Below the pieces are notes generated by a model, which saw only the letters and a program-made list of their open reading frames with translations, was not told the DNA's origin and ran no database searches. Position numbers and translations under genes: made by a program. From the NCBI GenBank assembly GCA_002839795.1, contig PGYS01000010.1, positions 1 to 41,690 on the forward strand: a stretch of 41,690 nt of DNA, in the 5' to 3' direction. Shown in pieces: positions 9,518 to 27,810 of this stretch (positions are counted from its first letter, which is position 1; every line of letters begins with the position of its first letter). This DNA comes from Ignavibacteriae bacterium HGW-Ignavibacteriae-3 (lineage in GTDB: Bacteria > Bacteroidota > Ignavibacteria > Ignavibacteriales > Melioribacteraceae).

Positions 9518-9573
9518 ACCTTTACAAAGTTATTCGATTAATTCTTTATGTTATTTCTAAATTAAACAGATTG

Positions 9574-9909: not shown

Positions 9910-9947
9910 CTTAATATTCCTGTTTAAAAGTAAATTTTAACGATGTT

Positions 9948-10541: not shown

Positions 10542-10581
10542 AATGCGCCTCTTAATTAATGATTTTGAACCAAACATTGTT

Positions 10582-11060: not shown

Positions 11061-11819
11061 TTATCTTGTTTCGTTTACCAAAATATTTTCCAGTTCAATT
11101 GCTCGCGGAAATAAAATATTGTTTTCCAGATGAATATGTTTGTGAAGATCTTTTTCAAATTCATCAAGTTCTTTGTAAGTAGTCTGAAAAGTTGTGCAGG
11201 CATCCTGCGGAAGAGAGTAATTGTCGGTTAACGCTCTGATTTTTTCCATAGCGCTGCCGGCCGAAACATGTTCTGCCTCCATTTGTCTGATTGGATTTTT
11301 TATGGTTCCGTATCCGCCGCTTTTTGGTTTTTCGCTGAAGTTCTTTGTGTCAACCAGATATCGGATAAGAGGGAAAAGTATTTTTTCTTCTTTTGCCATG
11401 TGACTTATCATTTCATTGGCGACAAGTCTAAATTCTTTTTGAACTTCAGAAATGTATGAATATTTCTCCCCATGTGCATTAAAAACTTTTTCCAGATGAG
11501 TGGCGATATTAGGAATTGCATTCTTCACATAGGTGTGATGATTATTGACAATATACTGAGCCAGAAAATTCAGATCCCATTCTGAATAGCGCTGGTTATC
11601 GGATGAAATGGATTGATTTACTTTGTTGAGTTCTTCAAGAAATTTTTCATTTGAAATCTGTTTTTCTTCCAAAGCCTCCCGAAGAGGCCGGTTTCCGTTG
11701 CAGCAGAAATCTATTCCGAGTTTTTCAAATAGTTCTGAAGCGTGAAAATTCTGAGTTACAAGGTCTTTCACTTTTACTTTTGAGAAATCATCAACTGAAT
11801 TAAATGATTTAGGCTTCAT
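11061..11819 (-). CDS. ric: Iron-sulfur cluster repair di-iron protein (RIC/ScdA/YtfE)
   Basis: The 252-residue protein has an N-terminal ScdA_N (DUF542) domain with the paired cysteines in LGIDFCCNG (residues about 32-40). A hemerythrin-like four-helix domain follows, with His/Glu ligands in NNHHTYV, ISHMAKEEKILFP, EAEHVSAG and KHIHLENNILFP. Members repair Fe-S clusters damaged by NO or oxidative stress and are hallmark NO-response genes. The ATG at 11819 is supported by AAGGAGAG 6-8 bases upstream. A longer in-frame extension to 11948 would run through the promoter and is rejected. It is the first gene of the five-gene operon ending in norZ. Confidence 0.92.
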   Translation of the reverse strand: MKPKSFNSVDDFSKVKVKDLVTQNFHASELFEKLGIDFCCNGNRPLREALEEKQISNEKFLEELNKVNQSISSDNQRYSEWDLNFLAQYIVNNHHTYVKNAIPNIATHLEKVFNAHGEKYSYISEVQKEFRLVANEMISHMAKEEKILFPLIRYLVDTKNFSEKPKSGGYGTIKNPIRQMEAEHVSAGSAMEKIRALTDNYSLPQDACTTFQTTYKELDEFEKDLHKHIHLENNILFPRAIELENILVNETR

Positions 11820-11901
11820 TTCTTCTCTCCTTAATTGAAAATGATAATGTTTATTTGTCATAGAAAAATTTATTTGCGAAACAATCAAAAATACAATAAA
11901 A

Positions 11902-11956
11902 GAATTTTTTGTCTGATTAAAAGTAGGGATATTCGGACGTTGTGTCAAGTTAAATT
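11902..11956 (-). promoter_or_regulatory. Promoter and shared element of the ric-norZ operon
   Basis: Read on the minus strand, a TTGACA -35 (11943-11948) is followed after exactly 17 bp by TACTTT (11920-11925). The 16-bp element ATCAGA-C-AAAAAATTC (11902-11917) comes next, overlapping the expected transcription start. The block AATTTAACTTGACACA (11941-11956) is identical to one in the nar promoter. The remaining sequence up to 12155 shows nothing further that I recognise. Confidence 0.7.
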
Positions 11957-12155: not shown

Positions 12156-12806
12156 CTAAATCAATTTATCGAAATCGGCCTCGGAAAATAAGTGCATCGC
12201 TTGAAGAAACAAAATATTGTCTTCCCTGTGGATATGCAACCGCAGCGTTTCAACTACTGCGATGCCTTGATCGAAAGCGCTTTCAAATGTGATCTCCTTT
12301 GATTTAGGATCCGAGAGCCGCGATCCTAATCCCAGAAAATTAAAAACCAATGCAACGGCTTGTGCAATTTTAATATGCTCATCTTCCATTAAATCTATTG
12401 CTGTTGAAAGTTTTTCCCCTTTACTGTGTTCGCCGCTCTCCATCAGTCTTTCATTTAAAATCGGAAATAGAATTTTTTCTTCTTTGTTGTGATGCTCCAC
12501 AATGTGTTCGTCATAAAACTCAAAAAAATTTCTTAAACGCTCATCAATTTCTTTATTGAAAATCCAGTTGTTTGTGCGCCAGGCAATTAATGCGTTTTCA
12601 AATTCATTAAGCACCATTGATAATTGGCTGTGTTCATTAATTAATTTTTTCAGGAAGGGATGCATGTTCTCGAATGGAATTTTTTCAAGGGTCTGAGGGG
12701 AATAGGGGTCCGGAGGACTCATTGGGGAGAGTTCTTCTTCTTTACTTTTCTCGGCAGATCTTTTTAGTGGACCATCCGGAAATCGGTTCTGGTTTGAACT
12801 ATTCAT
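12156..12806 (-). CDS. Hemerythrin-like di-iron protein
   Basis: The 216-residue protein has a hydrophilic, Pro/Ser-rich N-terminus (about 45 residues) followed by a hemerythrin-type four-helix bundle. Likely iron ligands lie in NEHSQL, VEHHNKEEKILFP, MEDEHIK and LRLHIHREDNILF. Hemerythrins bind O2 or NO at a di-iron centre; this one lacks the ScdA_N domain of the neighbouring RIC protein. It is the last gene of the nar operon. ATG 12806, 10 bp after the narK2 stop, is preferred over ATG 12839, which would overlap narK2 by 23 bp. The operon position suggests protection of the nitrate-reduction machinery from NO, which is inference. Confidence 0.82.
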   Translation of the reverse strand: MNSSNQNRFPDGPLKRSAEKSKEEELSPMSPPDPYSPQTLEKIPFENMHPFLKKLINEHSQLSMVLNEFENALIAWRTNNWIFNKEIDERLRNFFEFYDEHIVEHHNKEEKILFPILNERLMESGEHSKGEKLSTAIDLMEDEHIKIAQAVALVFNFLGLGSRLSDPKSKEITFESAFDQGIAVVETLRLHIHREDNILFLQAMHLFSEADFDKLI

Positions 12807-12816
12807 TTTTTCTTCT

Positions 12817-14421
12817 TTAAGGTTTAGAAATTTCCGCATTCTTGCGTGTGTAGCAATACCAATTTAAGAAAAGACAGATGGCGTAGTAAAAGGCAAACCC
12901 ATAAAGAGCATATTCCGGCGTACCGTTTTCAATCTGCTGACCGAATACTTTTGGTATGATGAATGCCCCGTAAGCGGCTATTGCCGAAGTCCATCCAAGA
13001 ACCGGTCCGGCCTGCTCCTTATTAAAAATATAAGGGATGCTTCTGAATGTCGAGCCATTGCCGATACCGGTAGCCAGAAATAATACCATAAAACATAAAA
13101 AGAATGGAAGCCAATAATCCTCGGGCGTGGCGCTGTTTTTTGCCAGGATAATAAAATAAGCGACCATCAGTGCAGCAATTATCTGAGATATCGTACTATA
13201 GGCAGTTATTTTTGATCCGCTATTGACCTTATCGGACAACCAACCGCCAACGGGGCGAATCAAAGCACCTATCATTGGGCCGATAAAAACCCACATTAAA
13301 AAATCCGGTGCATTAGGATTAACATAAGCTGGATTACTTTTGTTGCTGTATACAAAAATGTCCTGGCAAAGTTTTGGGAATGCCGCTGAAAATCCAATGA
13401 AAGAACCGAAAGTCATAGTGTAAATCACCGTCATTACCCAATTATGTTTATTATTAAAAATTGCGAACTGTTTTACTAAATTATCTTTTATCTCTCCCGG
13501 AGTGGCATATTTCATCAGGGCAAGCGTTATTAAAACCACAATCGGAAGGACAAACCACATGTTTAATTTTATGCCGACTAACAAAACTGAGCCGGCGGCA
13601 GTTGCGATCAAACCAAGCGATATCAGATAGAATGTTTTTGCAATACCCTGGTATGTATTGGGAAGAGCCGGAGTGCCTGTAATTAAATTATTCATACCCC
13701 GGAAAGCGGCTGCAGATGAAATAATTAAAAACGGAACCCAGATCCAACCCGCGTTTTGAACACCGGCTAAACTAATCCCAGTAACTTGTAGCCCGGAATT
13801 ATCTACAGCAGAGAAAAGAAAAAATCCCATAATCCATGGAATTGCTTTTTGCATTATTCCGACACCAAGATTTCCGATTCCCGCATTAAGTCCAAGTGAG
13901 GATCCTTGTACTTTCTTAGGGAAAAAATAACTGATATTGCTCATTGAAGAAGCAAAATTTCCGCCCCCGATACCGGAGAATGCCGCGAAGACCGCAAAAG
14001 TAATATAGGAGGTGTTAATATTTTGCAGGGCTAAAGCAACTCCTATAACTGGTACAAGTAATAATACCGTGGTAACAAAGATTACATTTCTTCCGCCGCC
14101 AAGTGAGATTAAGAATGAATTGGGTATGCGCAAAGTAGCGCCCGCCAATCCGGCTATTGCCGGGAGCGTATAATATAAACTGTTTATTTCCTTTAATTTA
14201 TTTGTTACTTCGGCGGGGCTCATTGAATCTGTGATCATTCCGAAATTGTAGCCAAATTCTTTAAGCTTGGTTGCAATAATGCTCCACATCATCCAAACTG
14301 CGAAGGCGAGCAATAATGCCGGAATTGAAATCAGTAAGTTTTTAACGGCAATTTTTTTACCGCCAGTATTCCAGAATTTCTCGTCTTCAACTCTCCAGTC
14401 ATCAATATTAATTTTAGTCAT
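12817..14421 (-). CDS. narK2: NarK2-type nitrate/nitrite transporter (MFS, NNP family)
   Basis: The 534-residue protein has about 12 membrane helices. The NNP signatures are visible: LNAGIGNLGVG in helix 5, and conserved arginines in ATLRIPNSF (helix 2) and ALIRPVGGWLSDK (helix 8), which in NarK grip the nitrate or nitrite anion. The N-terminal DDWRVEDEKFW segment is typical of the NarK2/NarU-like branch. It follows narK1 by 26 bp. Two differently typed NarK proteins in one operon usually split the work between nitrate/proton symport and nitrate/nitrite exchange; which does which here cannot be decided. Confidence 0.9.
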   Translation of the reverse strand: MTKINIDDWRVEDEKFWNTGGKKIAVKNLLISIPALLLAFAVWMMWSIIATKLKEFGYNFGMITDSMSPAEVTNKLKEINSLYYTLPAIAGLAGATLRIPNSFLISLGGGRNVIFVTTVLLLVPVIGVALALQNINTSYITFAVFAAFSGIGGGNFASSMSNISYFFPKKVQGSSLGLNAGIGNLGVGIMQKAIPWIMGFFLFSAVDNSGLQVTGISLAGVQNAGWIWVPFLIISSAAAFRGMNNLITGTPALPNTYQGIAKTFYLISLGLIATAAGSVLLVGIKLNMWFVLPIVVLITLALMKYATPGEIKDNLVKQFAIFNNKHNWVMTVIYTMTFGSFIGFSAAFPKLCQDIFVYSNKSNPAYVNPNAPDFLMWVFIGPMIGALIRPVGGWLSDKVNSGSKITAYSTISQIIAALMVAYFIILAKNSATPEDYWLPFFLCFMVLFLATGIGNGSTFRSIPYIFNKEQAGPVLGWTSAIAAYGAFIIPKVFGQQIENGTPEYALYGFAFYYAICLFLNWYCYTRKNAEISKP

Positions 14422-14447
14422 TAAACTTCCCTGTGGGCCTTAATTAT

Positions 14448-15953
14448 TTATTTATGGTGCTTAGGTTTCATATCAATATGTTCCAATGCTTCAGGAACCT
14501 CGGCTTCCATGAGTTTTTTGGTTGAAAGATGAAGCCAAACTAAACACACGGCTGATAGAATGAGCATAAACATCCAGCAGCTGGTCCAAAGCCCGGTACT
14601 TTCGAGTAAATACCCAAAAATTATCGGACCGAAGAATCCGCCGAGTCCTCCAAGCACACCGACCATCCCTCCGACTACGCCAACCTCATCAGGAAAGTGA
14701 TCGGGAATTAATTTATAAACTCCTGCTTTCCCAATTCCCCAAATAGATCCAATGAGAATTACAAGCACAGCAAATATCCAGACATTAGCCTGAAAATGAA
14801 TTTTTGTAATTCCTTTTGCTAACAATTCTTTCTTCTCGACTCTATCGCCAATTTTAACGACCGGTTCCTGCCAGACAGCCTTAGTAGGAAGAACCAGCAA
14901 TTGATCATCCAATATTTCGCTTTTTGTCGTTTTTTTAATTACCGGGTAATGAATATTATTTACTACAATTAATGTATCCGTAACCGAAGTAACAGTGCCT
15001 GCTTTTTTATTCATTATTCCGCTTCCGGGCGAATAAATATCCATCCGGGGAATTGTCAGCATTAAACTTATTACAACCGAAGAGGCAAGAACGATAAACA
15101 TAACTTTTCTTGCGCCAAATTTGTCTGACATCCAGCCGCCGAGCGCCCGGATAACACCGGAAGGAAAACTAAAAAGTGAAGCGAAAATTCCTGCGGTTAT
15201 GAGCGGCAAATAATACACATTTACAAAATACGGGACAAGCCATTGTGAGAAAGCAACAAAGCATCCAAAGACCAGGAAATAAAATAATCCGAAACGCCAA
15301 ACTCTAACATCCTTTAATGGCTGCAGCAATTGTTTGATAGTTTTATTTGAGCTGGCAGGTTTTTTGTTTTCTGTGAAGATTAAAAATATTATCGCCATTA
15401 AAACAAGTGCCGCTGAATAGATGACAGGAAGAGTTCTCCAATTTTCAAGATTTGCGCCGTTGTTAGTTAAATATTTTAAAATCGACGGCGCCAGTAAAGT
15501 TGTAAGCGCAGCGCCGGCATTGCCTGCTCCAAAAATTCCCAGCGCTCTCCCTTGCCAGTTTCTTGGGTACCAAACCGAAGTGTAAGCAATTCCTATGGCA
15601 AAACTTATTCCTGTTAGACCAAAACCAAAGCTGGCAATGGCAAACCAAAAAAAACTATTTGCGTATGAAAGTAAATACATCGGAATTGCAGAAAATAAAA
15701 GTAAACCTCCGAAAATTATTCTACCGCCATATTTGTCAGTTAATATTCCCGCAGGCAATCTGAATATTGAACCGGCCAGGACAGGAATTCCCAGCAACCA
15801 CCCGATTTCTATCGGGCCCCATTTAAAAACCTGATTATCAACTAAAAAAGTAACAAGAACACCATTCAGCATCCATGCGGCAAAACAAATCGTGAATGCA
15901 AGTGTATTGAAGAACAGCATTTTGTGAGCTTTGTTGTTAACTGTTTTTTCCAT
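14448..15953 (-). CDS. narK1: NarK1-type nitrate/nitrite transporter with an inserted soluble segment
   Basis: The 501-residue NNP-family transporter has the nitrate signature FGAGNAGAAL (141-150), a second Gly-rich signature GVVGGMVGVLGGLGG (425-439) and substrate arginines R65 and R269. Between helix 8 and helix 9 there is an insertion of about 85 residues (304-388), predicted beta-rich. Its segment VVKIGDRVEKKELLAKG (365-381) resembles a biotinyl/lipoyl-like (barrel-sandwich) fold without a lysine in the usual exposed MKM context. Most NarK proteins have only a short loop here. It is the first transporter after narI, 58 bp away. The membrane core appears intact. Confidence 0.9.
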   Translation of the reverse strand: MEKTVNNKAHKMLFFNTLAFTICFAAWMLNGVLVTFLVDNQVFKWGPIEIGWLLGIPVLAGSIFRLPAGILTDKYGGRIIFGGLLLFSAIPMYLLSYANSFFWFAIASFGFGLTGISFAIGIAYTSVWYPRNWQGRALGIFGAGNAGAALTTLLAPSILKYLTNNGANLENWRTLPVIYSAALVLMAIIFLIFTENKKPASSNKTIKQLLQPLKDVRVWRFGLFYFLVFGCFVAFSQWLVPYFVNVYYLPLITAGIFASLFSFPSGVIRALGGWMSDKFGARKVMFIVLASSVVISLMLTIPRMDIYSPGSGIMNKKAGTVTSVTDTLIVVNNIHYPVIKKTTKSEILDDQLLVLPTKAVWQEPVVKIGDRVEKKELLAKGITKIHFQANVWIFAVLVILIGSIWGIGKAGVYKLIPDHFPDEVGVVGGMVGVLGGLGGFFGPIIFGYLLESTGLWTSCWMFMLILSAVCLVWLHLSTKKLMEAEVPEALEHIDMKPKHHK

Positions 15954-16011: not shown

Positions 16012-16743
16012 TCAATTATTCTCCGGCCGATGAACAGTCCAGGCTTCTTTTGCATTTCGAATTTTTTTCCTGTCCCGGTTCCAAATCACTTTTTGATACG
16101 GGCGCCATAAATAACTTAAAGGAAATACAAGGAAGTGTACTAGTCTTGTAAACGGTACAATTAAAATAATCAGGAAGCCTGTTATAATATGCAGCTGAAC
16201 AACGAGGGGGAGCATAAAGACAGCATCCACTTTCGGAGTAAAGGTAAATAATGATTTAAGATATGGAGAAATGACAATTGCAAACCACGAAGAACCCCAT
16301 CGGTATCCGTAAGCAACCCATAATCCCAAAAATATTTGGATCAGCAGAAGAATTTCCAGAATGATATCCATGTAATTAGTGACTACTCTTATGCGCGCGC
16401 TGCTGAGTCTCCGGTAAAGGAGATTTATCAAACCAATAAAAGCCATTATTCCGAAAGTAAACGCTGAAATTTCAAGAATGAACAATCTCAAAGGCTGTTG
16501 ATTCCACAGAAGAATTGACTGCGGAATTAAGAATGCGATGAGATGGCCGAAGAAAATAATTACAATGCCCCAATGAAAAAGAAGCGAGCCCCAAAAAAGT
16601 TTTCTTGTTTCCAAAAATTGCGACGATAACGATGAGTATCCGAATTTAAGAGAGCGATATCGATATACAGTGCCGATAACAAATACGATTATAGCGATAT
16701 AGGGCAAAGCTATAAAAAAGAAATTATTTAACAAGTCCATCAT
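16012..16743 (-). CDS. narI: Respiratory nitrate reductase gamma subunit (cytochrome b)
   Basis: The 243-residue membrane subunit has five hydrophobic helices and oxidises quinol, passing electrons to NarH. The four heme b ligands are in place: H57 and H67 (FHWGIVIIFFGH) and H185 and H203 (LHIITGF, LVHFL), almost at the same positions as in E. coli NarI. Length is typical. It begins 6 bp after narJ, and the tandem ATGs at the start make the first or second Met equally possible. It anchors the NarGH dimer at the cytoplasmic membrane. Confidence 0.95.
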   Translation of the reverse strand: MMDLLNNFFFIALPYIAIIVFVIGTVYRYRSLKFGYSSLSSQFLETRKLFWGSLLFHWGIVIIFFGHLIAFLIPQSILLWNQQPLRLFILEISAFTFGIMAFIGLINLLYRRLSSARIRVVTNYMDIILEILLLIQIFLGLWVAYGYRWGSSWFAIVISPYLKSLFTFTPKVDAVFMLPLVVQLHIITGFLIILIVPFTRLVHFLVFPLSYLWRPYQKVIWNRDRKKIRNAKEAWTVHRPENN

Positions 16744-16749
16744 ACCTTC

Positions 16750-17412
16750 CTAACTTTGAATTTTTAATTCGTTAGAAATTTCATGTGAAAAAGTTGTTCC
16801 GTCTATCATCCCGGAATGATTTTCCTGAAAATCTGACGTAAGAACTTCAAGCAGCGCCAGTAAAGGCCATTTGTAAGCTTTGCCGTTATTTTCTTCCTGA
16901 GTGATCAATGTCTTATGATGTTTCTCATAGATATCATTTTTTTTGTGAATCTTTTCGTTCTCAAATTCACCGATTATTTTTTTTAGAGCCGGAATAATTA
17001 TCAAGAAGATCAGATCGTTTTTAAAGTCGTCGTCATTTACTCTTACCAGGAGCCTCAAAAGGTTTGGAAGGTGATCGGCCAGTTCTGTGCCGCAATCATT
17101 GTTTGTTTTTTTATGCTCGTTATTAAGATTAACCAGAAGTTCGCCTCTTTTATAATCGTCGCCGAATAATACGTAGCCAGCATCAAGGGTTGTTAACGCC
17201 TGAACATCAAATGAACGTGTGTAAATCTCTTCCCATTGCCGGAGCGGTATGCTGTTAATTATTGATGTGAATTCAGCCAAATATTTTGCTGCGGTTGGAT
17301 AATGGCCATCTAAAAATTTTTGAGCATTTTCAGTCTTAAAACGCAGTTCTTCAATTGGATACACAAATAAATCTGCAAGCAGTAAATAATGGTTAATTGG
17401 TCTGTAATTCAT
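16750..17412 (-). CDS. narJ: Nitrate reductase assembly chaperone NarJ
   Basis: The 220-residue soluble protein belongs to the TorD/DmsD/NarJ chaperone fold. The N-terminal YRPINHYLLLADLFVYP and the central region TLDAGYVLFGDDYKRGELLVNL (residues about 74-95) match NarJ, which holds apo-NarG for molybdenum cofactor insertion and membrane docking. It follows narH by 2 bp and precedes narI by 6 bp, the standard narGHJI order. Sequence drift is high in this family, so the call rests on position as well as motif. Confidence 0.9.
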   Translation of the reverse strand: MNYRPINHYLLLADLFVYPIEELRFKTENAQKFLDGHYPTAAKYLAEFTSIINSIPLRQWEEIYTRSFDVQALTTLDAGYVLFGDDYKRGELLVNLNNEHKKTNNDCGTELADHLPNLLRLLVRVNDDDFKNDLIFLIIIPALKKIIGEFENEKIHKKNDIYEKHHKTLITQEENNGKAYKWPLLALLEVLTSDFQENHSGMIDGTTFSHEISNELKIQS

Positions 17413-17414
17413 GG

Positions 17415-18968
17415 TTATAAGCCCCTTGTGGGAGATTCTTTAAAACCGAAACCGCTAGAACCCTTAGCGTCACCGGTGTTCTCAAGCATTTCGATGGCCT
17501 GCTCTCTGTGAGCCGGGGGAATATTAAAGCGATCGTCAAACTTCGCCAGAGAAGTCAAATAAAAAATATCATCAGCCATTTTAGAAGTTAATCCAACATC
17601 GCTCAGAGCTTTTTGAGAAAATTCGCTGTTGATATCGCCTACGGTAACGTTTCTTCTGTGGACACGAACCGCCAACTGTTTTTTGAGAACTTCTTTAATT
17701 TTACTTTCATTGCCCGCGCCGAACATGTTAGCAAGATATTTTAATGGAAATCTCGACTGTTCAATGGTTCCCCACAAGGAATTTGTGGAAGTATCATAGA
17801 GAGTGTTTTTATTCCAGAATTTTGCGATCGGATCGAGTTTGCCTGATTGCGCACTGTTATCGGCATCGCTCAGGGTCGCCATTACGGGCAATAAGGAAGG
17901 GATATAAAACAGCATAGGCAATGTTCTGTATTCGGCATGCAATGGCAGGCCTAATCCCCACTCTTTTACAAATTTATATACAGGTGATGTTTGAGCCGCT
18001 TGTATGGTAGAATCCGCTATACCATTGTCTTTGGCTTTCTGAATTACATTCTCATCGAAAGGATCCAGAATTAATTCCAATTGCCTGTCTATCAATTCAT
18101 CTTCCGGCGCGGAAGCCGCTTCCTGAATTCTGTCAGCATCGTATAGCAATACACCAAGATACCGGATTCTACCGACACAGGAATGCATGCACGCAGGAGC
18201 CAGGCCGGCCTCCAAACGGGGATAACATAAAATGCATTTTTCGGACTTGCCTGTACTCCAGTTATAATATGATTTTTTATAAGGGCACGCCGTAACGCAC
18301 ATTCGCCAGGCGCGGCAAACCTGCTGATTGATAAGAACAACTCCATCCTCGCCGCGTTTGTAAATTGCACCGGAAGGACATGAAGCAACACAAGCCGGAT
18401 TAAGACAGTGATTGCAAATTCTGGGAAGATAGAACATTGCCATTTTCTCCAGCTGGAACATGGCTTCTTTTTCGGAGGGCGATAGATGTTCAAGATTTGG
18501 ATCCCGACGGGCAAATTCCGGTGTCCCGCTCAAATCGTCATCCCAATTAGGTCCGCTTTTTATGTCAATTGGTTTTCCGGTGATTAATGATACCGGGCGT
18601 GCGGTCGGTTGATCATTGCCTTTGGGAGATTCGATAAGATCCAGATATTTGTATGTCCAGGGTTCGTAATAATCCTCAAGCGAAGGCATATATGGATTGT
18701 GGAAAATATTTAACAATCCTTTGTATTTACCGGAGCCTCTCAGTGAAAGTTTCTGATCATCACTTTTTTTCCAGCCGCCCTTATAAATATTTTGATCTTC
18801 CCACTTTGTCGGAAAACCAGTGCCGGGTTTGGTCTCAACATTATTCCACCACATATACTCTGCGCCTTTTCTATCAGTCCAGATATTTTTACATGCGATA
18901 GAACAGGTGTGACATCCTATACACTTGTCCAAATGAAAAAGCATGGCGACCTGTGATCTTACATCCAT
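17415..18968 (-). CDS. narH: Respiratory nitrate reductase beta subunit (Fe-S)
   Basis: The 517-residue electron-transfer subunit carries four cysteine clusters: C16/C19/C22/C26; C185/C188/C193/C197; C218/W221/C224/C228; and C245/C248/C260/C264. The tryptophan W221 in CRAWRMC replaces a cysteine, the mark of the [3Fe-4S] centre of NarH. It relays electrons from NarI heme to NarG at the cytoplasmic face. Length is typical. It lies 47 bp after narG and is coupled to narJ with 2 bp between. Confidence 0.96.
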   Translation of the reverse strand: MDVRSQVAMLFHLDKCIGCHTCSIACKNIWTDRKGAEYMWWNNVETKPGTGFPTKWEDQNIYKGGWKKSDDQKLSLRGSGKYKGLLNIFHNPYMPSLEDYYEPWTYKYLDLIESPKGNDQPTARPVSLITGKPIDIKSGPNWDDDLSGTPEFARRDPNLEHLSPSEKEAMFQLEKMAMFYLPRICNHCLNPACVASCPSGAIYKRGEDGVVLINQQVCRAWRMCVTACPYKKSYYNWSTGKSEKCILCYPRLEAGLAPACMHSCVGRIRYLGVLLYDADRIQEAASAPEDELIDRQLELILDPFDENVIQKAKDNGIADSTIQAAQTSPVYKFVKEWGLGLPLHAEYRTLPMLFYIPSLLPVMATLSDADNSAQSGKLDPIAKFWNKNTLYDTSTNSLWGTIEQSRFPLKYLANMFGAGNESKIKEVLKKQLAVRVHRRNVTVGDINSEFSQKALSDVGLTSKMADDIFYLTSLAKFDDRFNIPPAHREQAIEMLENTGDAKGSSGFGFKESPTRGL

Positions 18969-19015: not shown

Positions 19016-22000
19016 TTAAAATTCCACAACAGTCATTTTTTTAATAATCACGTGTGTATCCCGGTTCGGCGCCGTCGGACCCCAATAGTTAAAGTGATAG
19101 GAAAATTGGCCGTATCCGCCTGCAAGTAAATTTGGTTTCAAATGAGTTCTTGTTACGCTGTTGTTTCCGCCCGCCCGTTTGTTTCCGCGCATCTGAGATT
19201 TAGGAATTGTGATTGTCCTTTCCACCGTGTGATAAACAATGCATACACCTTTTGGAATTCGCGAGCTTACAACAGCTCTGGTGCAGTAAACGCCGTTATC
19301 ATTCAGCACTTCAACCCAATCATTATCTTTGATACCCAATTCCTCAGCATCCTCTTCACTAAGCCAGCATGGTTCACACCCTCTTGAAAGAGTTAGCATT
19401 CGCAAATTGTCCATGTAAGTTGAATGGATGTGCCATTTGCCGTGGGGAGTTAAACAATTCAAAACTTTTGCGTTACCATCCTTTAGTGTTTCTTTCAACT
19501 CACCGAAGACTTCCGGCTTGGGAGATGGTTTATACGTCGGAAGATGTTCTCCGAATGCTATGTACATTTCATGGTCTAAATAGAAATGCTGTCTACCGGT
19601 TAAAGTTCTCCATGGAACCAATCTTTCAACATTATATGTAAACGCCGAATAAGCTCTTCCATTGTTCATCAATCCCGACCAGACCGGAGATGTATTATAT
19701 CGTTTGGGTTGTGCCTGTAAATCTTTAAAAGTCATTCTAACATCTCTGCTTCCGTCTGCGATATCAGTGAGAGTCAAACCGGTTTTCGACTCCATGTATT
19801 TGTATGCGCGGTGTGTCAGATCTCCGTTCGTAAGAGAGGAGAGATGAAGCACTGCATTTGCCGCAGAAACATCATTCTTCAAAGATGGATAAACTATGCC
19901 GTCAATATTTTCAACCGGGAAATAATTTGAATCAAGCATTTCATCATAATAATCAGCGCATTGATAATGATTCCCGTGCGCGCTCATACCTTTCTTTTTG
20001 ATGTTTGGACCAAGAGAAATAAATTTATCATAGATCTTAGTGTAGTCTCTGTCAACGATTGCAATCTTATGCATCGTCTTTCCCGGAACGGCTTCGCATT
20101 CACCAAGGTACCAGTCCTTTATTGTCGGTTGACTGATTTCGTCGGCGGAATCATGCGAGAGAGGAAGAGTAACAATATCACGCTTTGTTTCCCGGAAATG
20201 TTTCCGGGCTGTTTTACTTGTCTCAAGGGCAATGTTTCTAAAAATCTCCCAATCAGACTTCGATTCCCATACGGGAGCGATCGCAGCCGATAAGGGATGA
20301 ATAAAAGAATGCATATCAGTGCTATTCAAATCGTTTTTCTCATACCATGAAGCCGCGGGTAAAACTATGTCAGAATAGAGCGCTGATGAATCCATCCGGA
20401 AATTTAAATCCACGACAAGGTCCATCTTTCCGACGGGGGCAATATCATGCCATTTCAATTCTTCGGTTTTTTCTTCGTTATCTTTCGCAATTAAATTTGA
20501 ATGGGTTCCCAAATAATGTTTTAGCGCATATTCGTGTCCTTTCATACTTCCGGATATTGCGTTTCCTCTCCAGATAATCCAGACGCGGGGGAAATTTGTT
20601 TCTGCTTCCGGATCTCCGATCGCATATTCAATCTCTTTTGTTTTCAGTTTTTCAAGAATAATTTTTTTTAATTGTTCCGGATCGTCGGTTTTTGCTTCAC
20701 GGCTTAAATCAAGAGTGTTCTTATTGAACTGCGGATAAAAGGGCATCCACCCCATTCGAACGGATTTTAAAATTAAATCCGCCATGTGCTTTCTTGTAAG
20801 ATCATTATCGGGGGCTGTGTTGTACTTGGATGTAAGACCGTCATAACGGTATTGACATGTATTGATATAATGCCAGATAGGGGTTTGCTGCAGCCGGGAC
20901 GCATCGACCCAGTCTTTTGCAAACGCAATCGTTGCCCAGGAATCAGTCGGAGCCAGTTTCTCCTGACCAACGTAGTGATTTAATCCGCCGCCATTTTTTC
21001 CGACGCATCCGCAGAGCATTAAAGCCATTATGCCCGCGCGGTACATTAAATTATTATGGTACCAGTGATTCACGCCGGCCCCGATGATAATCATGCACTT
21101 ACCCTGGGTGTTGCTGGCGGTTTCAGCCCATTCTCTCGCAAAGCTTATAACATTTTTAGAATCAACTCCTGTGAATATTTCCTGCCATGCCGGAGTATAT
21201 GAGGAATCTTTATCATTGTAGTCTTTAGGGTAATCACCGCCGAGATTCCGTTCAATTCCATATTGTGCCATTGTTAAATCATAAACAGTTGTTACCGGAA
21301 TCTTTTTTCCTTCAACAGTTTTGATAAAATTAACCGGCACGCCCCGTAATTTTTTCATGTTCAGGCCATATTCAACAAATTCAACCTGCAGAACTTCATC
21401 ATGTTTATCAATCAAGCTAAGGCACGGGTCGTATGCCAGGTTATCGGTTGAATTTTCATATTTGAGATTCCAGTTGCCTTGTTCAGAATCCCATCTGTGT
21501 CCCATTCCGCCCTTCGGTACAACAAATTTTCCGGTTAGGGAATCGATATTTAAAAATTTCCATTCGCCGTTGGGTATATCCGCGTATTGAGATATTTGAT
21601 TTGCCCTAAGAAGTTTGCCCGGTTTGTAAACATTCTGCTCTTCAACAAGTTCGACCAGATAAGGAGAATCTGTATATTTTTTTACATAATCTATGAAGTA
21701 TGGATTTTTATTTTCGTGATGAAACTCTTTAAGAATTACATGAGTTACAGCCATCCAGAAAGCGCCATCGCTTCCGGCATGAAGCGGAACCCATTGATCA
21801 GCATATTTTGCAACCTGGCTGAAATCGGGAGAGAATACAATTGCCTTTGTTCCGTTATGCCGCGACTCGGCAAAAAAATGGCAGTCAGGTGTCCTGGTCA
21901 TATTAAGATTTGCGCCCATCACTGCGATCATTTTAGAATTGTACCAGTCCGCGCTTTCGCATACATCCGTCTGTTCGCCCCAGATTTCAGGAGAGGCATT

Positions 22001-22633
22001 CGGAAGATCACAATACCAATCGTAAAAACTAAGATTAACGCCGCCGAAGAGCTGCAAGAATCTGCTTCCGCCGGCATAGCTTAACATAGACATTGCCGGA
22101 ATCGGAGAAAAGCCGATAACACGGTCGGGCCCGTATTTTTTCGCAGTGTAAATATTTGCGGCTGCAATAATTTCCAATGCTTCTTCCCAGCTCGTCCTTC
22201 TGAATCCGCCCTTGCCCCGGGCCTGCTGGTACTCTTTTCTTTTTTCGGGATCGTTCTGAATTCTTTCCCAGGCCAAAAAAGAATCACCCGTTTTTAGTTT
22301 TGCTTCACGGTAAGCATCTATTAATACACCGCGGATGAGGGGATATTTTATTCTTAACGGACTGTAGAGATACCATGAGAAAGAAATCCCTCTCTGACAT
22401 CCTCTCGGTTCATATGGAGGCAAACCTTCTTCGAGTAAAGGATAATCCAGTTGCTGGGTTTCCCAGACAACGATTCCGTCCTTAACGTGAATCTGCCAGG
22501 AACATCCGCCTGTACAGTTTACACCATGAGTGCTGCGCACAACTTTATCATGTTGAAATCTGTTTCTATAAAACTCTTCCCACTTTCTGGTATCCGGCGA
22601 AATGATGTCTCTAATCCAGCTCATTTTATTCAC
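19016..22633 (-). CDS. narG: Respiratory nitrate reductase alpha subunit (molybdenum)
   Basis: The 1205-residue Mo-bisPGD catalytic subunit reduces nitrate to nitrite. The FS0 cluster ligands are H36, C40, C44 and C79 ([19 protein letters not shown]). The Mo-coordinating aspartate is D229 in SADWYNS, aligning with E. coli D222. No twin-arginine signal is present, so the active site faces the cytoplasm as in classical NarG. The frame starts at GTG 22633, but the ATG three codons later (22624) is as likely. It begins 11 bp after the upstream cytochrome gene. No molybdenum cofactor synthesis genes are seen in the window, so the cofactor must come from elsewhere in the genome. Confidence 0.97.
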
Positions 22634-22644
22634 TCATTTTAAGA

Positions 22645-23469
22645 TTAATGAAAGTTGACACTCTTCTTTTTTACTCTGATCCATAGCAGCAATAAAATGA
22701 CTAACATCAAATTTGATGCAAGGGCTACTCCGATGAGCAGTGACGATTCCTTCTCTGTCTTCGGAATTATTACGGGGCCTTTCTTATCAACATAGTAAAG
22801 CAGCGCCAGCAGATTTTTGATTTCCTGATCTGTTAATTGATGGAATTGAAACGCATCCGCCATGGCAGGGAATGGCGGGTTTCTTAAAATTCCATCAATG
22901 CCTTGTGCGCCCATTCTTGAAAATGTATTCGTTAAATCTTTGGAAAGTAAGCCGCCGTTTGTAACAATCGGGTTTTCTATGTTATGACACGTCAGGCATG
23001 CGGCCCCATTGTTTGTCAATTTTGTTGTTCCGTCAAAAATGTTCAGTCCGTTTTCAATATCTACCTTCGTGATATAAGTCGCGCTGAATATCTGACTCGG
23101 TGTTCTGGTGTTTGGGCTTTGGGAATCAACGCTGTTTATTTTGATGTGTTCGAGAACAGATAGAATCTCGGCATTGCTTAAATTCTGATCCGGCATTAAA
23201 ATATTGTTATACTGGCCGAAGACCGCAACTGCAGTAGAATCGCCGGAGTTAATAAGTGTTTGAGATGAATGAATAAACTTTATTAACCAGGCCTCGTTTC
23301 TTTTTTTTGTGATATTGGATAAATCCGGTCCGATCAATTTACCCTTGCCGATGGTATGGCATGAAATACATTTCTGAGAAAAAAGTAATTCTCCCTTGTC
23401 TTGCGCAGAAAGCTCAATGTGGAAGATCACAAAAAATTGTACTAAAACAACAATTGCAATTTTACGCAT
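22645..23469 (-). CDS. Membrane-anchored diheme cytochrome c heading the nar operon (NarC-like)
   Basis: The 274-residue protein has a signal peptide (about 1-22), a first c-heme motif CISCH (34-38), a second CLTCH (158-162) and a C-terminal membrane helix (about 246-266), so two heme domains sit outside the membrane. Candidate distal methionines lie in NILMPDQN and PAMADAF. It is the first gene of the nar operon, 11 bp before narG. The arrangement cytochrome-GHJI-K1-K2 recalls the Thermus narCGHJIK cluster, where NarC is a diheme cytochrome. A role as an additional electron outlet or partner of NarI is inferred from that. AAGAAGAG precedes the ATG. Confidence 0.88.
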   Translation of the reverse strand: MRKIAIVVLVQFFVIFHIELSAQDKGELLFSQKCISCHTIGKGKLIGPDLSNITKKRNEAWLIKFIHSSQTLINSGDSTAVAVFGQYNNILMPDQNLSNAEILSVLEHIKINSVDSQSPNTRTPSQIFSATYITKVDIENGLNIFDGTTKLTNNGAACLTCHNIENPIVTNGGLLSKDLTNTFSRMGAQGIDGILRNPPFPAMADAFQFHQLTDQEIKNLLALLYYVDKKGPVIIPKTEKESSLLIGVALASNLMLVILLLLWIRVKKKSVNFH

Positions 23470-23513
23470 AACTTTTTCTCTTCTTAGGGATGAAAAAACA
23501 CCCGTATAATTCG

Positions 23514-23569
23514 GAATTTTTTATCTGATTGTAACTTAGATAATCACAGACAATGTGTCAAGTTAAATT
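23514..23569 (-). promoter_or_regulatory. Promoter and shared element of the nar operon
   Basis: On the minus strand, TTGACA (23556-23561) is followed after 17 bp by TAAGTT (23533-23538). The element ATCAGA-T-AAAAAATTC (23514-23529) comes next, spanning the likely start of transcription. The segment AATTTAACTTGACACA (23554-23569) is identical to the one before ric. An inverted repeat TTATCT...AGATAA (23521-23543, plus-strand reading) overlaps the -10. Confidence 0.7.
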
Positions 23570-23648: not shown

Positions 23649-24491
23649 CTAATTAATTTGAACCGATTGAACCAATTCTCCTGTCGGACTTATAACACTT
23701 ACATTCACGGGAATTGCACTTTTAGAGATTTCGACGGCCTGTTGAGCTAATTGAGCAAGCCCGTTGCAGCACGGAACAGTCATTATAAGAACTGTAATCG
23801 ATTTGAGATTAGACTCGTTTATCATCAATAACAGTTTATCAAGATAAACCTGTTTATTGGAATCAAGTTTTGGACATGCTATAGCGAGCGATTTTCCTTT
23901 CAGAAAATCTTTATGGAAATCGGGGTAGGCAAAGGCGCAACAATCCGCAGCGAGAAGAAGATCTGAATTTTTAAAAAACTGGGCTTGCGGAGAAACCAGA
24001 TGAAGCTGCACCGGCCATTGCCTTAAATGAGAAACGCGTGCGCCATTTTCATCCGCGGATTTATCTGTCTGTTTAAATGTTAATTCTTGTGAACCGGGAC
24101 AGCCACTGTGGGCTTGTTTTTCTACAGACTCTCTACCTGAAAGGGGATTTTCAATTCCCTTTTCGCGCAGAAATTCCAGCGCCTCCGTTAGGTATTCAAA
24201 CTCCTCATGATCGCGCAGGTGCTTCAGGTGTGCAATAATTACGTTTGTTCCGCCTTTCATGATATAATCCATTACCTTCCTTTCATCGTACGGTTCGGCT
24301 TCGCGTTCTTCGATTGTTAATGCACCCGGAGGGCAGTTTCCAAGGCACGCCCCCAGACCGTCGCAGAAAAGGTCGCTTATTAATCTTGCCTTCCCGTCAA
24401 TTATCTGAAGGGCTCCTTCGTGGCACTCCGGAACGCAATTTCCGCATCCGTCGCACTTTTCTTCATCTATTTTAATGATTTTACGTATCAT
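23649..24491 (-). CDS. Ferredoxin-like 4Fe-4S protein with extra cysteine-rich domain
   Basis: The 280-residue soluble protein starts with a two-cluster ferredoxin domain. The first set is complete (C13/C16/C19/C23). In the second, C43, C49 and C53 are present but the position of the second cysteine is L46 (CDGLGAC), so this site would hold a [3Fe-4S] or altered cluster. Further cysteine motifs follow: SGCPGS (about 128), ADCCAF (about 192) and VPCCNG (about 245). The pattern resembles iron-sulfur proteins often found beside hybrid-cluster-protein or NO-stress genes; the reaction is unknown. The gene stands alone between nar and the divergent nrf operon, and its promoter shares the element seen before ric and nar. 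Confidence 0.75.
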   Translation of the reverse strand: MIRKIIKIDEEKCDGCGNCVPECHEGALQIIDGKARLISDLFCDGLGACLGNCPPGALTIEEREAEPYDERKVMDYIMKGGTNVIIAHLKHLRDHEEFEYLTEALEFLREKGIENPLSGRESVEKQAHSGCPGSQELTFKQTDKSADENGARVSHLRQWPVQLHLVSPQAQFFKNSDLLLAADCCAFAYPDFHKDFLKGKSLAIACPKLDSNKQVYLDKLLLMINESNLKSITVLIMTVPCCNGLAQLAQQAVEISKSAIPVNVSVISPTGELVQSVQIN

Positions 24492-24513
24492 ATATTTTCC
24501 GATTTGATAAACA

Positions 24514-24560
24514 GAATTTTTTTTCTGATATTAATATATCAATATTTTGTCTTTTGTCAA
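24514..24560 (-). promoter_or_regulatory. Promoter and shared element of the Fe-S protein gene
   Basis: On the minus strand, TTGACA (24555-24560) is followed 25 bp downstream by ATCAGA-A-AAAAAATTC (24514-24529), the third copy of the element. A TATTAA lies 18 bp after the -35. Around it, TGATAT...ATATCA forms a short inverted repeat. Confidence 0.62.
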
Positions 24561-24606: not shown

Positions 24607-25701
24607 ATGAGTACGAAATATATTAAGAATAAAGACAAATCTGTCCAGATAGTAAGATTTGTAGTACAAATCGCGTTTTCTTTATTGTGTATATGGATTG
24701 GCATTGAGTTCTCGCAGTTCATTGCATATCTGGAATCGAATGGCGTGCGGCCATTTCATCATAGACCTCCCGGTGTTGAGGGCTTCCTGCCGATCAGCGC
24801 CCTGATGAGCGTCGTATATTTTTTCCAGACAGGAATTGTACATCCCGTTCACCCGGCTGGATTTTTTATTTTTCTTGCGATAGTCGGCGTGTCGCTGGTT
24901 TTTGGAAAAGCGTTCTGCAGCTGGTTATGCCCGGTGGGATTTCTTTCGGAATTGGTTGGAGACTTCGGTGACAAAGTATGGAAAAAAATATTTAAGAGGA
25001 GATTCAAACTTCCTCGTCTGCTGGACTATCCCCTGCGTTCGTTAAAATACCTGCTTCTCGCGTTTTTTGCATTCGCAATTTTTTCAATGACAGAAACCGC
25101 GTTGGCGTATTTTTTAAGTGATACTTACAATATCGTCTCAGACGTTAAAATGTATTATTTCTTTGCAAATATTTCCAGGTTTTCATTAATTGTTATCGGA
25201 ATTTTGTTCTTCCTATCGATTGTTGTCAGGAATTTCTGGTGCAGATATTTATGTCCCTATGGTGCTCTGCTTGGGATAGCCGGTCTCCTGAGTCCAAATA
25301 AAATAAGAAGAGATGCGGTAAATTGTATCGACTGCGGATTATGTACCAAAGCATGTCCTTCGTTCATAAAAGTTGACAAGGTTATAACAGTAAGGTCGGA
25401 TGAATGTACGTCATGTCTAAACTGCGTTGATGTCTGCCCCGTAGAAGACACTCTTTATGTAAGAAGTTTTATTGGCAAGAAAAAAATATCAAAAAAATTA
25501 ATTGCCGCCGGGGTGATAATGATTTTTGTTGCGATAACGGGATTCGGCATGATCAGCGGGAACTGGCATAATAAAGTACCACCACAAGAATATCTAAGGA
25601 TTCACAAAGATCTGGATGCCATCGGGCATCCGACAAGTACTTCCGACATCAAAGAACTAAACCGATCTGTAGAGAAAGGAAGAATAGATGGAGAAAAATA
25701 A
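24607..25701 (+). CDS. NapH-like membrane polyferredoxin
   Basis: The 364-residue protein has five to six membrane helices. Two cytoplasm-facing CxxxCP motifs (C104-C108 in CSWLCP and C212-C216 in CRYLCPYG) are hallmarks of the NapH/NosR/RnfE group. Two [4Fe-4S] sites follow (C240/C243/C246/C250 and C267/C270/C273/C277), then a final helix (about 300-320). Such proteins pass electrons from quinol across or out of the membrane to periplasmic reductases. It overlaps nrfH by 14 bp, so a role in feeding the NrfHA pair is likely but unproven. ATG start at 24607. Confidence 0.85.
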   Translation: MSTKYIKNKDKSVQIVRFVVQIAFSLLCIWIGIEFSQFIAYLESNGVRPFHHRPPGVEGFLPISALMSVVYFFQTGIVHPVHPAGFFIFLAIVGVSLVFGKAFCSWLCPVGFLSELVGDFGDKVWKKIFKRRFKLPRLLDYPLRSLKYLLLAFFAFAIFSMTETALAYFLSDTYNIVSDVKMYYFFANISRFSLIVIGILFFLSIVVRNFWCRYLCPYGALLGIAGLLSPNKIRRDAVNCIDCGLCTKACPSFIKVDKVITVRSDECTSCLNCVDVCPVEDTLYVRSFIGKKKISKKLIAAGVIMIFVAITGFGMISGNWHNKVPPQEYLRIHKDLDAIGHPTSTSDIKELNRSVEKGRIDGEK

Positions 25702-26329
25702 TTCTGTTGAAAAGAATCCGATTGTTAAATTGTTTTCTCATATTATTCCGCCGCCGCAGTGGAGATATCCGGTAATAGTCATATTGGGAATTTTTGTCGG
25801 GCTTGGATTTTATGTTCTTTATATATCCAATGCAATTTCATATCTATCGGATGATCCAAAAACTTGCATAAACTGTCACGTTATGATTCCTCAATATGCT
25901 ACATGGGAGAGGGGAAGTCATGGACGTGGAATTACCTGTAACGATTGTCACGTCCCCCAGAATAATATTATATCGAAATATCTCTTCAAGGCAAATGACG
26001 GATTGCGCCACGCAACTTATTTTACAATGAGATGGGAGCCGCAGGTAATCAGGATTAAAGATGCCGGAAAACGGGCCGTTCAGGATAACTGCATTCGCTG
26101 CCATACAAATTTAATTCACCCTCTCGCGCTGAGATCAATCAATAATAAAAGCGTTGAGGATCAGACCGAAAGATATTGCTGGGATTGCCACCGCGAGACT
26201 CCGCATGGAAGAATTCACAGTTTATCATCAACCCCTTACGCGCGTGCGCCGCAACTCGAACCGTCTGTGCCTGAGTGGCTTAAAAATTATATTAAATCAG
26301 ATAAAAAATTATCAGAGGAAAAAAAATGA
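25688..26329 (+). CDS. nrfH: Tetraheme cytochrome c quinol dehydrogenase NrfH
   Basis: The 213-residue NapC/NirT-family protein has one N-terminal membrane anchor (about 27-48) and four c-heme motifs: CINCH (60-64), CNDCH (84-88), CIRCH (135-139) and CWDCH (164-168). It oxidises menaquinol and delivers electrons to NrfA on the outside of the membrane. It overlaps the upstream polyferredoxin by 14 bp and nrfA by 4 bp (ATGA), indicating translational coupling. Length is slightly longer than the classical NrfH because of the tail after heme 4. Confidence 0.93.
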   Translation: MEKNNSVEKNPIVKLFSHIIPPPQWRYPVIVILGIFVGLGFYVLYISNAISYLSDDPKTCINCHVMIPQYATWERGSHGRGITCNDCHVPQNNIISKYLFKANDGLRHATYFTMRWEPQVIRIKDAGKRAVQDNCIRCHTNLIHPLALRSINNKSVEDQTERYCWDCHRETPHGRIHSLSSTPYARAPQLEPSVPEWLKNYIKSDKKLSEEKK

Positions 26330-27810
26330 AACCGATTCAGGAATTGACTAAGAACAAACCATGGCTTGGGTGGGTACTTTTTATTGCCACTATCGTTGTT
26401 GTTTTTTTAATAGGATTGTTCGCTTCATCTATCATTGAAAGAAGAAATGAATCCATGACGCTTCAGCAGGTAAAGCCGATTGCGGATTGGGAGCCCAGAA
26501 ATGAAGTGTGGGGAGAAAATTATCCTCGCGAGTATGAAACTTATATGCAAATGCATGATACTACATTCGCAAGCAAATACGCGGGATCAGTTACGCGAGA
26601 TTATCTTGAAGAATCTCCCGATCTTGTAATAATGTGGGCCGGCTACGCGTTTTCAAAAGAATATAACGCACCCCGGGGACATTCATTTGCAATTAAAGAT
26701 CTTAGAAATATTCTAAGAACAGGCGGAGTTAAAGAAAGTCCCATGCCGGCTACATGCTGGACCTGTAAAAGTCCGGACGTTCCGCGTGTAATGCAAAAGG
26801 TTGGAGCGGAGGAATTTTATAAATCGAAATGGAAAGATTTAGGTGCCGAGATAGTTAATCCGATCGGCTGCCAGGATTGTCACGATCCCAAAACACTTGA
26901 TTTACGCATTACAAGACCGGCTCTTATCGAAGCATTGCAAAGACAGGGCAGAGATATAAAAAGTTTTTCTCACAACGAAATGAGATCACTTGTATGCGCC
27001 CAGTGCCATGTTGAGTATTATTTTAAAGGCGAGGGTAAATATTTAACATTTCCATGGGATAAGGGATTTAGCGCAGACGCGATGGAAGAATATTACGACA
27101 ATATTGAATTTTCGGATTGGACACATAAACTCAGCAGAGTACCGATGCTAAAAGCACAGCATCCTGACTACGAATTATTTAAAACAGGAGTTCATGCGGA
27201 CCGCGGAGTAAGTTGTTCCGATTGTCATATGCCCTATAAATCCGAAGGCGGTGTTAAGTTTACAGATCATCACGTTCAAAGCCCCTTAAACAATGTTGAA
27301 AATTCCTGCCAGGTTTGTCACCGCGAAAAGACACAAAAGCTTATTGAAAATGTTTACGAAAGACAGGATAAAATTCTTGAGTTAAGAAAAATTGCAGAGA
27401 AAACTTTGGCAGCCACACATCTGGAAGCAAAGATGGCGTGGGACAACGGCGCAACTGAAAGTGAAATGAAAGCAGCGCTTAAATATATCCGCCACGCTCA
27501 ATGGAGATGGGATTGGGTTGCAGCGGCAAACGGATTGGGCTTTCATTCACCGGTTGAGTCAATGCGTGTGTTGGGAACATCTATTCAAAAATCAGAACTC
27601 GCGAGAAAAGAAATTGCTCTGGTGCTTGTTAAACACGGCGTAAAATATCCTGTAAATTTGCCGGACTATTCAACCAAGGAGAAAGCTCAGAAATTAATAG
27701 GTCTTGATATGCCGGCACTCCACGCAGATAAAGCCCAATTGTTAAAAACTGTAATTCCCGAATGGGACAAAAAGGCAAAAGAGCGGCAGGGAACTTTACA
27801 GCAGTATTAA
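26326..27810 (+). CDS. nrfA: Pentaheme cytochrome c nitrite reductase NrfA
   Basis: The 494-residue enzyme carries out the six-electron reduction of nitrite to ammonium and can also reduce NO. It has a signal anchor (about 13-35), the active-site heme motif CWTCK (144-148) with lysine as axial ligand, and four ordinary motifs CQDCH (182-186), CAQCH (224-228), CSDCH (297-301) and CQVCH (328-332). The CxxCK heme normally needs a dedicated lyase (NrfEFG or NrfI/CcsA type); none is in the window. It is the final gene of the three-gene operon, followed by a terminator. Confidence 0.96.
   Translation: MKPIQELTKNKPWLGWVLFIATIVVVFLIGLFASSIIERRNESMTLQQVKPIADWEPRNEVWGENYPREYETYMQMHDTTFASKYAGSVTRDYLEESPDLVIMWAGYAFSKEYNAPRGHSFAIKDLRNILRTGGVKESPMPATCWTCKSPDVPRVMQKVGAEEFYKSKWKDLGAEIVNPIGCQDCHDPKTLDLRITRPALIEALQRQGRDIKSFSHNEMRSLVCAQCHVEYYFKGEGKYLTFPWDKGFSADAMEEYYDNIEFSDWTHKLSRVPMLKAQHPDYELFKTGVHADRGVSCSDCHMPYKSEGGVKFTDHHVQSPLNNVENSCQVCHREKTQKLIENVYERQDKILELRKIAEKTLAATHLEAKMAWDNGATESEMKAALKYIRHAQWRWDWVAAANGLGFHSPVESMRVLGTSIQKSELARKEIALVLVKHGVKYPVNLPDYSTKEKAQKLIGLDMPALHADKAQLLKTVIPEWDKKAKERQGTLQQY

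Follow-up and report, generated by a model that had tools for sequence, protein, structure and literature searches.

In the stretch of DNA analysed here (41,690 nucleotides, hereafter the window), three promoters of genes for nitrogen-oxide metabolism share a 16-bp element, which a preliminary description had interpreted as the signal of one regulon, acting either as an operator or in an RNA leader. Which of the two is it, and which protein might read it? The copies, all on the minus strand, precede the nar run, the ric-norZ run and the gene of a ferredoxin-like Fe-S protein. Their sequence, ATCAGA-N-AAAAAATTC, and coordinates are as described, only position 7 of the 16 varies among them, and the spacing to the TTGACA upstream amounts to 26 bp for nar and 25 bp for both ric and the Fe-S gene. 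Comparison with relatives reveals that the 16-mer comprises the left half and the centre of a 22-bp dyad that had gone unnoticed. The regulon and the place of the element stand, while its extent has to be corrected, the 16-mer being only half of the full palindromic site.

The dyad and its promoters in the source genome

The predicted operators listed below were scored with a symmetrised matrix built from 23 sites in front of Rrf2 genes, all from other genomes. The -35 hexamers are read from the sequence, and the candidate -10 hexamers are proposed at 17-bp spacing from them.

23514-23529, minus strand: 16-mer copy, nar promoter, ATCAGATAAAAAATTC
23509-23530, minus strand: predicted operator of the nar operon, AATCAGATAAAAAATTCCGAAT, 16.5 bits
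23556-23561, minus strand: -35 hexamer TTGACA, nar
23533-23538, minus strand: candidate -10 TAAGTT, nar
11902-11917, minus strand: 16-mer copy, ric-norZ promoter, ATCAGACAAAAAATTC
11897-11918, minus strand: predicted operator of the ric-norZ operon, AATCAGACAAAAAATTCTTTTA, 13.8 bits, weak right half
11943-11948, minus strand: -35 hexamer TTGACA, ric
11920-11925, minus strand: candidate -10 TACTTT, ric
24514-24529, minus strand: 16-mer copy, Fe-S protein gene promoter, ATCAGAAAAAAAATTC
24509-24530, minus strand: predicted operator of the Fe-S protein gene, TATCAGAAAAAAAATTCTGTTT, 17.4 bits, between divergent genes
24555-24560, minus strand: -35 hexamer TTGACA, Fe-S gene
24532-24537, minus strand: candidate -10 ATATTA, Fe-S gene

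The genes behind these sites, together with the proposed regulator, are the following.

22645-23469, minus strand: cytochrome c gene that opens the nar run (Pfam)
19016-22633, minus strand: narG (TIGR01580, above cut-off)
17415-18968, minus strand: narH (TIGR01660, above cut-off)
16750-17412, minus strand: gene in the narJ position, without a Pfam match
16012-16743, minus strand: narI (Pfam)
12156-15953, minus strand: two MFS transporters plus a hemerythrin-domain protein, closing the nar run (presumably co-transcribed)
11061-11819, minus strand: ric, iron-sulfur cluster repair di-iron protein, start at 11819 (TIGR03652, above cut-off)
7292-11040, minus strand: remaining ric run, with a small membrane protein, a DUF6448 protein, a cupin and a NorB-type NO reductase (Pfam; presumably co-transcribed)
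23649-24491, minus strand: ferredoxin-like Fe-S protein, 280 aa, behind a predicted operator
5369-5797, plus strand: Rrf2-family regulator P0001, 142 aa, proposed DNA-binding protein (profiles, alignment, structure model)

The NorB-type reductase carries a fused cytochrome c-like domain according to Pfam and returns no NCBIfam match at E <= 1e-20. Divergent from the Fe-S gene lie NapH-like, NrfH-like and NrfA genes (24607-27810). Control of these nrf genes by the site at 24509 was considered; no TTGACA is oriented toward them at this operator, though the NapH-like gene has predicted operators upstream in relatives.

The source genome (HGW-Ignavibacteriae-3; 3,363,671 bases in 243 contigs, 96% complete) holds the exact 16-mer pattern at three places, all of them the window promoters. 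With one mismatch, 10 further places are found, none with TTGACA at a matching distance as judged by eye; one such copy, at 26296, lies inside the end of the nrfH-like gene, scores 4.2 bits and was taken as chance. With up to two mismatches, the pattern occurs at 102 places in all and the reversed pattern at 22, an excess that is not evidence in itself, since most of the 27 contexts inspected outside the three promoters read as coding by eye. The preliminary description had proposed searching the genome for the element at its distance from TTGACA: TTGACA-N23-28-ATCAGANAAAAAA returns 3 matches, all in the window, and the reversed control returns 0 across the 96 genomes searched. The looser TTGAC-N23-29-ATCAGANA returns 8 matches in the source genome, and the combination of TTGACA with the full 16-mer is confined to the three window promoters.

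Searches with the dyad itself agree with this scarcity. At up to three mismatches the whole source genome returns 5 matches, 3 of which are the window promoters (reversed control 0), and at a cut-off of 13.5 bits the Rrf2-site matrix finds the window sites only among 403 kb, namely the window and 20 other stretches. A sequence-only model, built from 32 hand-chosen sites with those of the window excluded, ranks the window sites 1, 2 and 4 in the source genome; its other candidates are mostly coding, or non-coding and devoid of a TTGACA-like box at 28-33 bp. A fourth candidate, TATCAGATTTAAAATTCTTTTT at C15:13801-13822 (L362:1500-1521; model rank 7), scores 14.3 bits, above the 13.8 bits of the ric site. 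The gene ~50 bp downstream of it looks by eye like one for a short-chain dehydrogenase, and no -35 lies at a fitting distance from the site.

In relatives, the palindrome is found at a constant position behind TTGACA-N17-TAnnTTT. Since the direction of reading had been picked partly by the -35 score when genes behind sites were assigned, which biases toward the 30-bp offset, offsets were recounted over both directions of 109 intergenic sites without picking. A TTGACA-like hexamer (at least 5 of 6 positions) starts 30 bp before the site in 26 of the 218 directions and 31 bp before it in 13, while any other offset in the range 6-69 accounts for 0-8. TA-n-n-TTT directly before the site is common to the 26 promoters with the 30-bp offset; it abuts the site, so a bound protein would occupy the expected transcription start. 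Repressors typically have their operators over the transcription start.

A second dyad, GACA-N3-(T/C)GTC, covers the -35 of nar (23549-23561, minus strand) and of ric (11936-11948, minus strand), and is also present in eight relatives (L176, L194, L202, L205, L225, L227, L237 and L239). At 9 bases from the start of TTGAC, TGTC is seen in 8 of 71 promoters, as against once at the other offsets between 6 and 19. This second dyad could be the site of another regulator; as it is present on some promoters of the window's family, two regulators may compete for one promoter.

Conservation of the dyad among relatives

The first relatives found display the element as AATCAGAN-AAAAAA-WTCYGAWT, mostly AATCAGAY-AAAAAA-ATCTGATT. 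Overall, the palindrome of relatives is AATCAGA-N8-TCTGATT, 22 bp long with an A/T-rich centre. The centre varies in sequence, many copies having a run of T instead of A, and the signal therefore consists of the half-sites AATCAGA and TCTGATT, 8 bp apart. In the window the left half is well preserved, the centre is A/T and the right half is degenerate, whereas the right half is nearly perfect in relatives.

The pattern TTGACA-N23-28-ATCAGANAAAAAA is present in 7 of 96 genomes, the source genome included. Among the hits in relatives, that of L066 precedes a cytochrome c gene and nosZ, that of L064 a different Rrf2 gene with a cytochrome c and a NosZ-like gene after it, and that of L065 extends into the beginning of a coding gene; the others precede an Rrf2 gene whose next neighbour encodes a NapH-like Fe-S membrane protein. 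The L066 product is NosZ (TIGR04246, 393 bits over 231 profile residues), and cannot reach the cut-off of 625 because the locus ends within the gene. The palindrome with up to two mismatches occurs in 125 of 391 genomes of the class, with 202 matches against 15 for the reversed pattern (hand tallies of the search rows). Perfect half-sites with any centre are found in 40 of 392 genomes of the phylum, against 0 for the reversed pattern: by hand tally, 21 of 42 genomes of the same order, 6 of 62 in the rest of the class and 13 of 288 outside the class. Centres outside the order often contain G and C, and the perfect half-site matches found there are probably due to chance.

Which genes follow the sites of relatives was read from 120 distinct sites in 30 loci and 80 fetched stretches, mostly of the same family and order, out of the 202 matches. 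Eleven sites fall in long ORFs, 6 have no gene in reach and 103 have a gene behind them (family names being those of representatives checked against family libraries; two genes, in L087 and L180, have two sites each and were entered twice). Rrf2 regulators account for 23 of these genes, or 25 after correction of L070 and L089, in each of which the site, initially assigned to the wrong side, is directly followed by an Rrf2 gene. Cytochromes c account for 20 (including the wrong-side pick of L089), NapH-like proteins for 12, homologues of the window Fe-S protein for 12, DUF438-hemerythrin-PAS proteins for 5, NrfH, ric and DUF6448 for 2 each, and copper nitrite reductase for 1, the remaining 24 being single or of other kinds. 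About 79 of the 103 belong to the Rrf2, nitrogen-oxide, cytochrome or Fe-S groups. Relatives' sites precede orthologues of the window Rrf2 gene and homologues of nos, nir, nrf, ric, nar-cytochrome and Fe-S protein genes. The preliminary description had named a lack of conservation in relatives as a finding that would speak against a regulon; the dyad is conserved before homologues of the same genes.

A gene-first test, which compared the sequence upstream of each homologue in the window's family with 200 dinucleotide shuffles, reports a site at p <= 0.05 for 8 of 8 nar cytochromes, 22 of 26 Fe-S genes, 9 of 22 ric genes and 8 of 28 Rrf2 genes; it is missing before 13 of the 22 ric homologues and 20 of the 28 family Rrf2 genes. 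The ric set consists of 22 regions from 23 matches outside the source genome (G053:C1:514365 was left out), the Rrf2 set comprises the best 29 loci outside the source genome, 28 with enough upstream sequence, and in the Fe-S set the truncated gene L260 was scored as a miss and the second segments L265 and L266 were unused. Among 80 named loci, which overlap the genomes behind the matrix and of which 79 offer enough sequence, a site of at least 15 bits lies within 200 bp upstream of the Rrf2 gene in 47 of 79 and is missing there in the other 32, as compared with 85 sites of at least 15 bits in 814 kb overall.

These data narrow the original alternative of operator or RNA leader to the operator, which agrees with the dyad symmetry, the fixed promoter position, the conservation, the genome-wide rarity and the sites before Rrf2 orthologues. 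A post-transcriptional signal, such as a leader element or 5' hairpin, would suit an element that spans the expected start, is mostly transcribable and has perfect arms that could pair; it is nonetheless very improbable, as the central run may be A or T whichever way the site is read, and is often T in relatives, the window sites have a degenerate right arm, and 15 of 32 sites do not keep pair 3-20. The same 32 sites contain 0 double compensatory changes, against a shuffled mean of 1.0, and for this lack of covariation the hairpin was rejected. Still less credible is a general feature of the core promoter or initiation region in these bacteria, which the preliminary description had named among the findings that would refute its reading. 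The element does adjoin the -10 and overlap the expected start in all three promoters, but three exact copies in 3.36 Mb, only three matches at 13.5 bits or above in the 403 kb, and the predominance of Rrf2, nitrogen-oxide, cytochrome and Fe-S genes behind the sites of relatives (~79/103) contradict it, and it was rejected. Judged from these comparisons, the conserved operator of a nitrogen-oxide regulon, in this little-studied bacterial group, is real.

An Rrf2-family protein as the proposed regulator

Profile analysis of P0001 reports the Rrf2 family with scores above the cut-offs (PF02082, 98.4 bits against 30; TIGR00738, 100.2 bits against 73.3). Its AlphaFold2 model exhibits the winged-helix Rrf2 fold (mean pLDDT 91.9) and resembles CymR (2y75; Z 17.0, 128 residues, rmsd 2.4), followed by IscR (4hf0; Z 14.9), RsrR (Z 14.6) and DNA-bound NsrR (Z 14.4), Z scores within 1 being counted as tied. 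Many genomes of the class encode orthologues (E <= 1e-42, ~48-87% identity). Close relatives in named organisms are mostly from Melioribacteraceae and other Ignavibacteria, with 80% identity in Stygiobacter electus. An alignment of 53 proteins (P0001, 23 encoded behind operators and 29 from the family) shows E10, P39, E41, S44, K45, Q48, C93, C106, H109 and W112 to be invariant (53/53), and C100 conserved in 51 of 53. P39, E41, S44, K45 and Q48 are residues of the recognition helix, which spans residues 40-53 in the model. The source genome contains three Rrf2 genes, and both paralogues of P0001 differ at E41 and S44.

The site and the regulator tend to occur together: of the 118 genomes that encode an Rrf2 orthologue 83 also have the site, as do 42 of the 273 that lack one, figures that ignore relatedness and depend on an orthologue threshold (E <= 1e-42) chosen post hoc, with G071 (E 4.1e-39) added by hand as a holder. 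Without G071 the counts are 82 of 117 and 43 of 274. In G087, which has no clear orthologue, both sites lie in coding sequence. The site before the regulator's own gene in many relatives suggests autoregulation. An operator for the window Rrf2 gene itself was looked for and rejected, none being found upstream of 5369, and in six genus-mates (L103-L107 and L110) the Rrf2 gene is likewise without an operator in front. Within the window's genus, the link between site and regulator is thus one of orthology and neighbourhood only. Divergent Rrf2-like proteins are also encoded behind the operator in L174 and L192 (30 and 33% identity); these and the one in L064 keep the PKEF-SKILQ recognition helix, and two paralogues may therefore share one operator.

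We estimate at roughly 80% the probability that the 22-bp dyad is the operator of the Rrf2 repressor encoded at 5369-5797 and that this protein controls nar, ric-norZ and the Fe-S gene. A dimer would read the two 7-bp half-sites across 8 A/T-rich, sequence-free base pairs and, the site lying directly behind the -10, would cover the expected start and block RNA polymerase at the three promoters. The regulator probably carries an Fe-S cluster through C93, C100, C106 and H109, and damage to this cluster by NO probably frees it from the operator. It would probably be NsrR-like in role and NO-responsive, NO being proposed as the signal because of the gene content behind the sites.

Another DNA-binding protein (of the Crp/Fnr type, an Rrf2 paralogue or some other repressor) that also controls the Rrf2 gene could read the dyad instead. 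Such a reading would accommodate the genus of the window, where the site does not adjoin the Rrf2 gene, the three Rrf2 genes of the source genome, the divergent Rrf2-like genes (L174, L192 and L064) that follow the site, and the 42 of 273 genomes with a site and no clear orthologue. We consider it improbable in view of the sites directly before Rrf2 genes (23 of the 103 picked genes, 47 of the 79 named loci), the co-occurrence of site and orthologue, and the recognition helix, in which the paralogues differ. Of the two kinds of binder that the preliminary description had named, Rrf2 and Crp/Fnr-family proteins, the former is favoured. The HcpR-type consensus sequences TTGACnnnnGTCAA, GTAACnnnnGTTAC and wTGTGAnnnnnnTCACAw (PMC1274295) are, by eye, unlike the site. 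Less improbable, though still rather unlikely, is that the Rrf2 protein at the site activates transcription, or senses the Fe-S or redox state instead of NO. The arrangement C-X6-C-X5-C-X2-H (C93, C100, C106, H109) is closer to the ligand set of IscR than to that of NsrR, and the targets include Fe-S proteins and Fe-S repair (ric), but the position over the start fits repression and many targets are nitrogen-oxide enzymes.

The proposed Rrf2 repressor can be compared with several characterized regulators. NsrR shares its fold and controls ric/ytfE and denitrification genes in several bacteria (PMC1274295); here, sites lie before ric in the window and before 9 of 22 family homologues, and the window ric run includes a NorB-type reductase. 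Three conserved cysteines are also common to NsrR and the P0001 family (C93 53/53, C100 51/53, C106 53/53), although the spacing C-X6-C-X5-C, with a conserved His, differs from Cys-93/99/105 of ScNsrR (PMC4432287). P0001 scores 35.1 bits against the NCBIfam NsrR model NF008240, far from its cut-off of 182, and the NsrR motif gATGyAT-N5-ATrCATc (PMC1274295) does not match AATCAGA-N8-TCTGATT. By curated cut-off and motif, the predicted regulator lies outside NsrR, the motif being a weak criterion of membership because ScNsrR is said to have a site unlike that of E. coli or B. subtilis (PMC4432287). The geometry of the operator resembles that of ScNsrR, a 23-bp dyad with a 7-bp centre devoid of base-specific contacts (PMC9338935); two 11-bp repeats with one base between them are described for an Rrf2 operator (PMC4432287).

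Against the IscR model TIGR02010, P0001 scores 47.9 bits (cut-off 207.55). We take the three cysteines and the histidine of IscR to be ordered like C93, C100, C106 and H109 of P0001. The fourth cluster ligand of IscR is His-107 (PMC4432287). The two differ in their targets, as the genes behind the site here belong to nitrogen-oxide metabolism. RsrR of Streptomyces venezuelae is the best PDB sequence match of P0001 (6y45, E 3e-07, residues 10-89 only), and E10 aligns with E8 of RsrR. The cluster ligands of RsrR differ from those of P0001. In Melioribacter roseus, a relative of the window's organism, the BadM/Rrf2 protein Mros1101 adjoins nos and was proposed from its gene position as a possible nos regulator, with no binding site given in the available part of that account (PMC3534657); it is compared by description, and orthology to P0001 is not assumed. 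No description of the present motif was found in the open-access literature searched, mostly titles and the starts of abstracts.

Reach of the regulon and further candidate members

Bacteria that possess a clade II nitrous-oxide reductase are considered to act as a biological N2O sink. Clade II nos clusters are enriched in Rrf2 genes according to a survey whose authors were aware of no data on the control of such clusters outside Proteobacteria and Firmicutes (PMC6264515). With an operator, a regulator and a list of candidate promoters, control of the clade II nos type becomes directly testable, and the site matrix can predict in which genomes nar, nir, nor and nos may be switched as one. More tentatively, and with the balance tilted somewhat against it, the protein could represent a distinct Ignavibacteriales class of Rrf2 regulators (not NsrR, and with an IscR-like Cys3His set) that acts as a master switch of nar, nir, nor, clade II nos, nrf and ric through one new operator.

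DUF438-type proteins are encoded behind the operator in L153, L157, L158, L186 and L211, and the two representatives checked combine DUF438, hemerythrin and PAS domains; this protein is a candidate gas sensor of the regulon. The DUF6448 gene of the ric run (9948-10652) has homologues directly behind an operator in L203 (2579-3229) and L205 (2629-3237), and one DUF6448 homologue behind an operator adjoins a copper nitrite reductase gene that has its own site. The DUF6448 protein may be a new player in the metabolism of NO or nitrite.
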